A stretch of 64,000 bases of DNA from Gemmata sp. (GTDB taxonomy: Bacteria; Planctomycetota; Planctomycetia; Gemmatales; Gemmataceae): NCBI GenBank assembly GCA_025055115.1, contig JANWYJ010000021.1, positions 1-64,000 of the forward strand. The letters run 5' to 3'. The notes beneath the pieces are model-generated. The model searched no databases and was not told the origin of the DNA. It saw nothing but the letters and a program-made list of their open reading frames with translations. Position numbers and translations under genes: made by a program. Below, piece by piece: positions 9,581 through 24,573 of this stretch (position 1 is the stretch's first letter; the number at the start of each line of letters is the position of its first letter).

Positions 9581-10624
9581 ATGCCAACCATTACGATCAA
9601 TGGCCAGTCGAAGACGTTTCCTACAACGCTGACGGTCGCCGATCTCTTAAAGCTATTCGGGAAAGACGCGAACAAATTAGCGGTGGAAGTCAATGGCGAA
9701 CTGATCAGCCGTTCCCACCATGCTACCCATACCCTTCAGGACGGCGACACGGTGGAGATCGTCACCTTGGTCGGGGGTGGTTCGCAGCCGCCCTCAATGG
9801 CTTTGGATCAACCCCTCCGGGTAGGCCCATTCACCTTCCGCAGCCGTCTTTTCACCGGAACCGGCAAATACAGCAGCTACGAATTGATGCAGCAGTGCTT
9901 GCAAGCCAGCGGTTGCGAAGTGACCACGGTGGCCGTTCGTCGTGATCGGCTCATCGACCGCGACGGCAAGAACATTCTCGATTACCTGGACTTGAAGCGA
10001 TTGACGATTTTGCCCAACACCGCAGGTTGCTTCAGCGCCGAAGAGGCGATTCGCCATGCCCGCCTGGCCCGGGAACTGCTTTCCAACCTCGGCAACCCCG
10101 GAGCCGATTGGGTCAAGCTCGAGTGCTTGGCCGATAAACGGACCCTCTTACCCGACCCGATCGACACCCTCAAGGCGACCGAGCAATTGGTGAAAGAGGG
10201 CTTTACGGTACTAGTGTACACAAGTGATGACCCGGTGTTGGCCAAACGGCTCAAAGAAGCCGGGGCGACCAGCGTCATGCCTGCCGGCAGCCCCATCGGC
10301 AGCGGGCAGGGGATTCTCAACCCCAACAACATTCGCATCTGCTTGGAGTATCTCAAAGAAAATGATCCGGATTACCCCGTGATTGTCGATGCCGGCGTCG
10401 GCACGGCCAGCGATGTCAGCGCCGCCTTCGAACTCGGCTGCGATGGGGTACTCCTCAATACCGCCATTGCGGCCGCACGCGATCCGTTACGCATGGCCTG
10501 GGCCATGCGCTACGCCGCCGAGGCTGGACGGCTTGCCTATCTTGCCGGTCGCATTCCCAAACGACTTTACGCCAATGCCAGTAGCCCTACCGAAGGACTC
10601 ATCGCCCCTCTGGCACGCACGTAG
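9581..10624 (+). CDS. thiG: Fused sulfur carrier ThiS and thiazole synthase ThiG
   Basis: 347 residues, start ATG 9581 with GGAGGAG six bases upstream. Residues 1-67 are ThiS ([35 protein letters not shown]). From about residue 76 it is ThiG, a TIM-barrel enzyme making the thiazole part of thiamine from deoxyxylulose phosphate, dehydroglycine and the ThiS thiocarboxylate. The Schiff-base lysine is in [12 protein letters not shown] (about K179). Phosphate-binding and later barrel motifs are [19 protein letters not shown] and LNTAIA. Free ThiS must end in Gly-Gly to be thiocarboxylated; here GGG at 65-67 runs straight into a short linker, so the chain would need processing or another chemistry. 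No other thiamine gene is adjacent. Confidence 0.93.
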
Positions 10625-22085: not shown

Positions 22086-22498
22086 TCGCGTCTGCGGCGT
22101 TGTTGCTGTTGGCCGGATAGCGCCGGAAAGAGCGATTCCCCCACGGGGCTTATCCCCCTTCAGGGCGTATCCCCACATCGGGGCGTATTCGCGGCTGCAA
22201 CCATCCGCATCAGGTTTTGAATTCGATCTAAGCCTTCAGGGCATATCCCCACATCGGGGCGTATCCGCGGAGCTTGTCTGCGCGAACGGATCGCATGCTC
22301 AACGGATTGCATGCGCGATGAGCGGCAAAAATCCTCGAACAGTCGCCTGAATGATCGGCGGTACTGACGCACCTCCGACCAGTGGCTTCTTGCGTTAATA
22401 CTCGTGCTTTGCTACGGTTTTTGTGTGTAAGACTCAGCAGTGCCGCCTGGTATCGCGAAGACGGACAGGCATCGTTCCTTACTCGTGCGAGACACGGT
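22086..22498. other. Gene-free stretch with spaced repeats
   Basis: No supported gene. It holds a 38-bp repeat pair (22157-22270) and, after it, the likely leader of the oxidoreductase gene. No terminator with a T-run was recognised. Confidence 0.6.
22157..22270. repeat. 38-bp direct repeat separated by 38 bp
   Basis: Copies at 22157-22194 and 22233-22270 (core CCCCACATCGGGGCGTAT; two mismatches) are offset by exactly 76 bases, the same geometry as the repeat at 16073. Each copy contains the short palindrome CCCCACATCGGGG. Confidence 0.95.
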
Positions 22499-23785
22499 AT
22501 GACGGCATCTCCAGAAGTGGTGGTGATCGGTGGTGGCCCGGCGGGTTCGACCGCTTCCACCCTCATTGCGCAAAAGGGTCACTCGGTTCGCCTCTTTGAG
22601 CGGGAAAAGTTCCCCCGCTTCCACATTGGCGAATCCTTCATGCCCGACACATACTTTCCCCTGCGTCGGCTCGGCATGCTCGACAAGATGAAAGCCTCGG
22701 CGTTCGTCAAGAAATACTCGGTTCAATTCGCGAACGATCAGGGCAAAGAGTCGCAACCGTTTTACTTTTTTGAGAATAACCCCCACGAGTGCACGCAAAC
22801 CTGGCAAGTGCTTCGCAGCGAATTCGACCATATGCTGCTCAATAACGCCCGCGAACACGGCGTCGATGTTCACGAGGAGTCCCGCGTTCTGGATGTATTT
22901 TTTGAGGGCGACAAGCAAACCGGCCTCCGGGTGCAGTACAAAGACGGCCGCGAAGAAACCCTCCATCCCAAAGTGATCGTGGACGCCAGCGGCCAAAGCT
23001 CCATCATCAGCAACCGACTGAAGATCAAAAATTGGGAACCCAAACTGAAAAAAGCCGCGGTGTGGTCCTACTTCCGCGGTGCCAAACGTGAACCCGGCCC
23101 CCTCGACGAAGGAGCCACCCTCGTTTTGCAACTGAAAGAAAAGAAAGGCTGGTTCTGGTACATCCCGCAGCACAACAATATCGTCAGCGTCGGGGTGGTG
23201 GCCGACCTGACCTATCTGTTCGATAAGCCCGCCCCCGAAGGAGTCGATCAACAGGCCCGGTTGGAAGAAATCTTCTGGCGGGAGGTGGAGAACTGCCCCG
23301 CCGTCAAACGGCGTATCGAAGGCTCCGAACGCTGCGACATCTACCGGACGCAAAAAGAATACTCTTACCGCTCGTCGCGGGTGGCCGGGGATGGCTGGGT
23401 TCTGGTGGGCGACGCCTTCGGCTTCCTCGACCCGATCTACTCCTCCGGCTTGCAACTGGCCTTCTCCTCCGGCATGTTTGCCGCCGATTGCATCACCGAA
23501 GGGCTGGCCAAAAACGACCTCAGCGCTGAACAACTCGGCAAATGGGGTCCGGAATTCATCAAGGGTATGGATCGGCTCAAGAAGTTCGTCTGCATTTACT
23601 ACGATGGCTTCAACTTTGGCTATTTCGTCCGCAAGTATCCGCAGATGAAACGGCATGTGACCGATCTACTCATCGGCAATGTGTTCAAAGACTCGCTCGA
23701 TGAAGTTTGGGAACCGCTATACGAGGTCCAACGCGAACTCATCGAGAAAAAACTCGAACCGATGCCGATGGCCACCGCGGGTTGA
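22499..23785 (+). CDS. FAD-dependent oxidoreductase of the flavin-dependent halogenase type
   Basis: 428 residues from ATG 22499. FAD-binding GGGPAG is at 11-16, with the acidic end of the Rossmann fold at LFERE. GES at 44-46, a VKKYSVQF segment (Lys71/72), WFWYIP at 218-223 and GDAFGFLDPIYSSG at 304-317 all match flavin-dependent halogenases. W-x-W-x-I-P and F-x-x-P-x-x-S-x-G are the diagnostic motifs, and the lysine segment resembles that of phenol-type halogenases. Related reductases such as geranylgeranyl reductases share the FAD motifs but not normally WxWxIP. Substrate unknown. No carrier protein or other biosynthetic gene is next to it. Location: cytoplasm. Confidence 0.85.
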   Translation: MTASPEVVVIGGGPAGSTASTLIAQKGHSVRLFEREKFPRFHIGESFMPDTYFPLRRLGMLDKMKASAFVKKYSVQFANDQGKESQPFYFFENNPHECTQTWQVLRSEFDHMLLNNAREHGVDVHEESRVLDVFFEGDKQTGLRVQYKDGREETLHPKVIVDASGQSSIISNRLKIKNWEPKLKKAAVWSYFRGAKREPGPLDEGATLVLQLKEKKGWFWYIPQHNNIVSVGVVADLTYLFDKPAPEGVDQQARLEEIFWREVENCPAVKRRIEGSERCDIYRTQKEYSYRSSRVAGDGWVLVGDAFGFLDPIYSSGLQLAFSSGMFAADCITEGLAKNDLSAEQLGKWGPEFIKGMDRLKKFVCIYYDGFNFGYFVRKYPQMKRHVTDLLIGNVFKDSLDEVWEPLYEVQRELIEKKLEPMPMATAG

Positions 23786-23877: not shown

Positions 23878-24573
23878 ATGCGTCGAAAATTCCTCACGGC
23901 TCATTGGCGTCATCTCCTTCTGGCGAACTTCGTTGTACCGGAGGAACTGCTTCGCCCCTATCTGCCACCGGATACCGACTTCGATCGACGCGAGGGCGTG
24001 TGTTGGGCCAGCCTGGTCGCCTTCCAATTCCTCAATACCCGTGTGGGGGGGATTGGCTGGCCGGGGTTTCGCCACTTTCCGGAGTGGAATCTGCGCTTCT
24101 ATGTGGTCCATCGCGGGCAACGGGGGGTCTGTTTTGTGCGGGAATGGGTGCCACAATGGACCGTCGCGACCATCGCCCGGGTGGTCTATAACGAGCCGTA
24201 TCGCGCTGCACCCATGACGATGGACGTGCGCGAAACGCCGGACACCGTCACCGCGACCTATCGCGTGCGCTGGGGGAGGCGGAATCATACGTTGCGGGCT
24301 GTCGGGAGCCGACCCGCGTTCTATCCCTCATCAGATAGCTGTGAGCATTGGTTCAAGGAGCATTCCTGGGGATTTGGGACATCGCGCGGCGGACGGTTGA
24401 TCCGCTATCAGGTCGAACATCCGCTGTGGGCGGTTTACCCACTGCGGGACTTTACCATGGATGTGGATTGGGGACAGTTGTATGGCCCCGCGTGGCAGCG
24501 GATGAATGGTATCGCTCCCGCGAGTGTCGTTTTCGCGGTGGGTAGCGCGGTGAGCGTTTATCCGAAAGGGTAA
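23878..24573 (+). CDS. DUF2071 (YqjF-like) family protein
   Basis: 231 residues. The pattern fits DUF2071: LTAHWRHLLLANFVVPEELL, PYLPPDTDFD, WASLVAFQF, FPEWNLRFYVV, GVCFVREWVPQ, then TATYRVRW and FLKEHSWGFG-like KEHSWGFGTSRGG. The family is distantly related to acetoacetate decarboxylase folds; its reaction is not established. It follows the halogenase-like gene by 92 bases on the same strand. No ribosome-binding site is visible before ATG 23878. Confidence 0.85.
   Translation: MRRKFLTAHWRHLLLANFVVPEELLRPYLPPDTDFDRREGVCWASLVAFQFLNTRVGGIGWPGFRHFPEWNLRFYVVHRGQRGVCFVREWVPQWTVATIARVVYNEPYRAAPMTMDVRETPDTVTATYRVRWGRRNHTLRAVGSRPAFYPSSDSCEHWFKEHSWGFGTSRGGRLIRYQVEHPLWAVYPLRDFTMDVDWGQLYGPAWQRMNGIAPASVVFAVGSAVSVYPKG

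Follow-up and report, generated by a model that had tools for sequence, protein, structure and literature searches.

What role can a gene of flavin-dependent halogenase type play when no biosynthetic cluster surrounds it? Flavin halogenases are known chiefly from sporadic secondary-metabolite clusters, and the gene considered here is found on a contig of Gemmata sp. (JANWYJ010000021.1), of which a stretch of 64,000 nucleotides, referred to as the window, was analysed. An earlier note on this DNA regarded it as an isolated gene whose product may act on a free small molecule. The data described below point elsewhere: the enzyme appears to belong to a planctomycete pathway that has not been described, its gene lying detached from the others, and this pathway probably starts from 4-hydroxybenzoate. 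We consider the chances slightly better than even that it is a halogenase-type enzyme dedicated to tailoring in a conserved planctomycetal pathway, the other genes of which lie mostly on other contigs.

The reading frame (Table 1) is free of internal stops in translation. An alternative, longer frame starts at GTG 22382, upstream of ATG 22499; judged from the sequence, the ATG start would place the FAD motif as N-terminal as it is in solved halogenases. The antisense ORF at 22412-23656 (minus strand) was taken as an overlap. The closest genes of the window, the rest of which was partly inspected by eye, encode a sulfatase, a DUF2071 protein and a PQQ-propeller protein. Neighbourhoods were compared for 73 loci and the window (74 in total, some genomes being present twice, as L041, which equals L093); gene calls within the loci were mechanical, and many clusters were named from a single representative. 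The DUF2071-type gene (23878-24573) lies immediately 3' of the enzyme gene, as it does in 5 of the 74 neighbourhoods (the window, L033, L034, L035 and L038), which are close kin only. The PQQ-propeller gene, also located 3' in the window, clustered with PQQ proteins of the pathway described below; it was left uncounted as a pathway link because such proteins are common. In 14 of the 74 neighbourhoods the gene immediately upstream encodes a regulator of the MarR family (one member was classified), in 13 of them co-directional, which gives a hint of regulation by an aromatic ligand. In its own genome the enzyme gene is present once, and the single further match is faint and reductase-like.

Table 1. 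Features of the enzyme gene, its partner and the associated gene sets.
Feature	Location	Strand	Details
Flavin-dependent-halogenase-type enzyme gene	22499..23785	+	428 aa
GGGPAG, FAD-binding GxGxxG, residues 11-16	22529..22546	+	G11, G13, P14, G16 invariant in the 62-row alignment
K72, in register of the catalytic lysine of known halogenases	22712..22714	+	65/66 family rows
WFWYIP, WxWxIP, residues 218-223	23150..23167	+	W218, W220, I222, P223 in 66/66 rows
FLDPIYSSG, FxxPxxSxG, residues 309-317	23423..23449	+	F309 in 65/66; D311, P312, S315, G317 in 66/66
Partner gene of own genome	G000 C48:44148-44663
L041 block, first part			HemN-like radical SAM, GcvH-like, ferredoxin, second radical SAM, squalene-hopene-cyclase-like
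L041 block, middle			DUF116-polyprenyl synthetase, partner, halogenase-type enzyme, GT4
L041 block, end			4HBT thioesterase, prenyltransferase-toroid protein, ABC ATPase, permease
Own genome, pathway genes	C95		Aldehyde dehydrogenase, iron alcohol dehydrogenase, PQQ-propeller, HemN-like, GcvH-like, ferredoxin, cyclase-like
Own genome, pathway genes	C48, near contig end		DUF116-polyprenyl synthetase and partner
Own genome, pathway genes	C57		GT4, 4HBT, toroid, ABC genes; permease truncated by contig end
Loci with MarR-type gene upstream	L054, L058, L063, L094, L096-L099, L101-L105, L108

The family to which the enzyme belongs is indicated by several comparisons. The Pfam Trp_halogenase model matches with 91.4 bits (cut-off 21), PDB 8zop matches at E 2.5e-63, and the best sequence matches in the PDB are halogenases and the uncharacterised 3nix. 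Together with a homologue in genome G017 that is 98% identical, these matches argue that the motif-bearing gene is not a product of chance. Two NCBIfam models stayed below their cut-offs, namely the CmlS equivalog NF033113 (221 bits; cut-off 900) and the geranylgeranyl-reductase superfamily TIGR02032, GG-red-SF (134.2 bits; cut-off 158.8). A structure model built from a 62-row alignment (pLDDT 93.6, pTM 0.92) was compared with solved structures by VIA, in which the top ten entries (Z 37-46) were nine halogenases or FasV, plus 3nix. The scores were 45.9 for FasV, 44.9 for PltA, 44.8 for ChlB4, 44.5 for both Mpy16 and Bmp2, 44.2 for 3nix, 41.4 for RadH, 41.1 for CndH and 37.4 for CmlS; outside the halogenases, PqsL, the best oxygenase, reached 33.5, PHBH 33.1 and the geranylgeranyl-reductase (GGR)-like 3oz2 32.7. 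The predicted fold is thus closer to solved flavin-dependent halogenases than to oxygenases or the geranylgeranyl-reductase relative. Among the 50 VIA matches listed there was no entry for a tryptophan halogenase, PltM or CtcP; Foldseek placed PltM and CtcP at TM 0.68-0.75. PltM, a halogenase of free phenols, is a weaker match (20% identity, TM 0.71, 108 bits), and the phenol substrate suggested below therefore rests on gene context, not on closeness to this enzyme.

The conserved residues agree with the family call of the earlier note, which is also supported by the Pfam match and the predicted fold. The WxWxIP motif stands where the note had placed it, and the FxxPxxSxG motif, given there as 310-317, begins one residue earlier (Table 1). 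Both are also present in the uncharacterised homologue 3nix. The lysine segment, which had been likened to that of phenol-type halogenases, holds up in the alignment, where K72 matches the putative catalytic position: it aligns with the lysine of all seven PDB references (FasV, PltA, CndH, Mpy16, ChlB4, CmlS and 3nix). If the enzyme served the same pathway by geranylgeranyl-reductase-type reduction of prenyl or other double bonds, the TIGR02032 match and the occurrence of DUF116-polyprenyl synthetase and cyclase-like genes in the pathway set would find an explanation. However, that match lies below the cut-off, WFWYIP stands in place of YxWxFP, the motif of geranylgeranyl reductases, and 3oz2 scores well below the halogenases. 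L209, a reductase-like protein of the same genome, has in the alignment neither the lysine nor either halogenase motif. On these four points the identity as a geranylgeranyl reductase was rejected, and we regard reduction of this type as very improbable.

A quick ML tree of 95 rows was used to place the enzyme among its relatives; the root was put on L209, a very long row and the sole, distant, reductase-like sequence included. The 66 rows of the enzyme family group as a single clade (SH-aLRT 99), and when six long or odd rows were taken out, the remaining 89 again had the family on one side of a branch (SH-aLRT 100). In this phylogeny, of the kind that the earlier note had called for, the family is a clade of its own among halogenase clades; it did not fall with L209, which as a single row makes a thin test of a placement among reductases. 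In this sample, the clade consists of planctomycete sequences and includes no characterised enzyme, and we know of no activity for any of its members. Just outside it stand FasV, CndH, and homologues from plasmids and from planctomycetes. Since other phyla were sampled by one peptide-pattern scan and a plasmid search, the term planctomycete clade is valid for this sample. The scan, which detects close relatives only, returned 33 loci, all labelled as Planctomycetota; the plasmid collection gave no match at 60% identity, the best among the best 40 of 90 matches being 37%. Two halogenase-type genes at 37% identity are located on plasmids, one next to genes for a ketosynthase and a cyclase-family protein on a small plasmid of Staphylococcus haemolyticus (NZ_CP120084.1, L214) and the other beside fatty-acid-synthase-like genes on a plasmid of Azospirillum ramasamyi (NZ_CP029832.1, L213). 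The latter genes resemble, we presume, an aryl polyene cluster.

The distribution of the gene was followed in two sets: 59 related genomes, including the enzyme's own, of which 49 are at least 90% complete, and a phylum sample of 244 genomes. With E 1.5e-113 or better taken as a strong match, 49 of the 59 related genomes carry a homologue, and none carries more than one strong copy, split pieces aside. In the phylum sample, 74 of 244 genomes hold one at E 1e-77 or better, a threshold set after the list was viewed. Some genomes of this sample, e.g., G288, G104 and G097, have two copies. At one G288 locus (L108, about 9959-9961; also L080) there is an in-frame TGA at the second tryptophan of WxWxIP; for the second copy (L129), which adjoins a chorismate-lyase-like gene, no stop was reported. 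Presence in 49 of 59 genomes was judged unusual for a halogenase, and it could suit a flavin oxygenase or oxidase of halogenase descent, hydroxylating or oxidising, without halogen, a 4-hydroxybenzoate-derived or terpenoid intermediate of the same pathway. PHBH and squalene epoxidase share the fold (Z 32-33), and two residues set the family apart, Q76 (in none of 18 reference rows) and W102 (among the references, in 3nix only). Yet WxWxIP, FxxPxxSxG and K72 are retained in 65-66 of the 66 family rows, and the halogenases score Z 37.4-45.9 as compared to at most 33.5 for oxygenases (CmlS lies 3.9 above that value, the remaining ones about 8-12). An oxygenase or oxidase is therefore, in our judgement, unlikely, even if it is the rival to be taken most seriously. 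Motifs and fold are no proof of halogenation, to which we give reasonable, though not high, credence as the activity of the enzyme.

The second element of the proposed reading is a family of about 185 aa, the gene of which is located directly upstream of the enzyme gene and co-directional with it in 16 of the 74 neighbourhoods; it is called the partner below. A profile of 13 members matched the DUF98 structure 2nwi (E 6e-5). The model of the own-genome partner (pLDDT 92.4) resembles DUF98 AF1396 (2nwi) at Z 16.4 and E. coli chorismate lyase (1g81) at Z 12.2 over 142 residues with rmsd 2.8, while UTRA ligand-binding domains match it at Z ~12, level with UbiC. An hhalign comparison with UbiC gave a probability of 85.8 and E 5.4e-6, the match ending before the glutamate. 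All 26 rows compared keep R82 and E181, which align with the arginine and glutamate of UbiC, the glutamate by MAFFT only; we take these two to be the UbiC catalytic pair. The arginine following the AG of UbiC is not conserved in the partner. With Pfam Chor_lyase, the own-genome partner gave no family match and one of 13 members matched at E 0.33. It is likely that the partner is a chorismate-lyase-like enzyme producing 4-hydroxybenzoate.

Two other destinations of the partner's product were considered and rejected. The first is methanopterin, the partner feeding H4MPT synthesis. The H4MPT marker MCH is present in 57 of the 59 related genomes, including all four f3 genomes that have neither partner nor enzyme; it is absent from G052, in which both are missing as well. 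The marker is not wholly neutral: counts for enzyme and MCH (both, enzyme only, MCH only, neither) are 49, 0, 8 and 2 in all 59 genomes (p 0.026) and 43, 0, 5 and 1 in the 49 that are at least 90% complete (p 0.12). The second is ubiquinone: a table row of a 2014 survey can be read as giving menaquinone, the futalosine genes and no UbiC for five planctomycetes (PMC3914697). The UbiC profile of that survey might, however, overlook the chorismate-lyase-like partner.

Partner and enzyme are inherited together. The partner is present in 51 of the 59 related genomes; among the 49 that are at least 90% complete, 42 have both genes, one the enzyme only, none the partner only and six neither (p 5e-7). 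In all 59, the respective numbers are 47, two (G020 and G034), four and six, and the four genomes with the partner and no strong enzyme homologue are 82-87% complete. In the phylum sample both genes are found in 57 genomes, the enzyme only in 17, the partner only in none and neither in 170 (Fisher p 9e-41, a value that ignores kinship, the counts not being independent events); thus, 17 of the 74 genomes with a strong homologue are without the partner. In 27 of the 57 genomes with both, the partner lies immediately 5' of the enzyme gene on the same strand, with gaps of up to about 460 bases. The DUF116-polyprenyl synthetase, found in 46 of 59 genomes, gave counts with the enzyme of 37, 6, 1 and 5 (both, enzyme only, synthetase only, neither) in the set at least 90% complete.

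Other members of the putative pathway are seen in loci where the genes lie together. In L041, and similarly in its kin, they form one co-directional block (Table 1), with a single reverse-strand ORF between the enzyme and GT4. Several loci outside the class have a variant with AMP-ligases, aldehyde dehydrogenase, HemN-like proteins, a PQQ-propeller and a transporter. In the window the enzyme gene is unlinked to these genes, and most of the set is found on three other contigs of the same genome; for the second radical SAM there was no match in the two own-genome stretches compared (L227 and L228). The break between C95 and C48 is probably technical, since the counterparts of these two parts are contiguous in G017. 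In that genome the enzyme gene is on the same contig as the synthetase, ~170 kb away (C3:226529 vs. C3:53439). A fusion of DUF116 and polyprenyl synthetase was noted at L162:10320-12119 and L163:7740-9539, in L163 near squalene-hopene-cyclase-like and HemN-like radical-SAM genes.

How do these data bear on the idea of a lone gene with a free small molecule as substrate? In the window and at many other loci the enzyme gene does stand by itself locally, and the MarR-type regulator upstream in some neighbourhoods could suit a scavenging or detoxifying role of a stand-alone halogenase. However, the joint inheritance with the chorismate-lyase-like gene, the adjacency of the two in 27 of the 57 genomes that have both, presence in most related genomes and the pathway genes on other contigs of the same genome speak against this proposal of the earlier note, and we now consider it improbable.

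In the preferred reading, a tailoring halogenase of a pathway from 4-hydroxybenzoate, the reaction would follow the general course of flavin-dependent halogenation, in which FADH2, O2, a C4a-hydroperoxyflavin, HOX and a lysine take part. FADH2 would be delivered to the two-component enzyme by a separate flavin reductase. The search for such a reductase, suggested in the earlier note, found a PF01613 gene elsewhere in the own genome; PF01613 genes also occur in 13 of 14 control genomes. O2 would then give the C4a-hydroperoxyflavin beside WxWxIP, chloride or bromide near FxxPxxSxG would be oxidised to HOX, and HOX would reach K72, which may position or carry the halogen. The chorismate-lyase-like partner would supply 4-hydroxybenzoate as the phenol precursor, and the halogen would be delivered ortho to the hydroxyl of the phenol derived from it. 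That the substrate derives from 4-hydroxybenzoate we hold to be moderately probable. The ring may, more doubtfully, be carrier-tethered as a thioester, as the closest solved halogenases act on carriers and the set contains a 4HBT thioesterase and a GcvH-like carrier.

That 49 of 59 related genomes carry a halogenase-type gene, inherited along with a chorismate-lyase-like gene and a set of cyclase, polyprenyl and radical-SAM genes, points to an unnoticed core pathway. In a broader and rather speculative version, most Planctomycetia would share a core pathway that joins 4-hydroxybenzoate to a terpenoid or acyl chain, the product being halogenated by this enzyme, glycosylated and exported; the DUF116-polyprenyl synthetase, the squalene-hopene-cyclase-like and radical-SAM proteins and the GcvH-like carrier would take part. 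We think this version unlikely as a whole. If it is correct, then a halogenated aryl lipid would occur throughout the class, and 4-hydroxybenzoate esters similar to alichondrichlorin may be its earliest known representatives. In any case, the gene set provides candidates for halogenated 4-hydroxybenzoate products of planctomycetes, and the gene pair yields a directly testable substrate hypothesis.

Among known compounds, planctomycete 3,5-dibromo-p-anisic acid, for which candidate genes have been postulated, and a chlorinated fatty acid are cited in a 2025 review (PMC12078418). Alichondrichlorin is described there as an ester of 4-hydroxybenzoate and a chlorinated fatty acid, with genes that the review calls unknown (PMC12078418), and is cited elsewhere as a chlorohydrin (PMC12864880). 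The two chemistries predicted for the gene pair have a likeness, by description, in a phenolic acid with two bromines and in 4-hydroxybenzoate esterified with a chlorinated fatty acid. In the portions seen of the literature on planctomycete halogenases, gene clusters and chorismate lyase, no description of this pathway was found.

Among known enzymes, FasV (8zop) is the best structural match, with 33% identity and all three motifs, although it belongs to a separate clade. FasV is a polyketide tailoring enzyme. PltA, Mpy16, ChlB4 and Bmp2 (5dbj, 5buk, 7fco and 5bva), which act on pyrrolyl, carrier-bound substrates, have a similar fold over nearly the full length (Z 44.5-44.9), and the first three have WxWxIP, FxxPxxSxG and the lysine in common with the enzyme; however, identity to the four is 28-31%, and PltA, Mpy16 and ChlB4 form a separate clade. 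CndH, CmlS and the Streptomyces globisporus C-1027 halogenase (L210, presumably SgcC3) have the same motifs and lysine at 30-33% identity but differ in their longer chains and separate clades. The uncharacterised Cytophaga hutchinsonii flavoprotein 3nix (Z 44.2) resembles the enzyme in the lysine, both motifs and W102, although it stands on a separate long branch.
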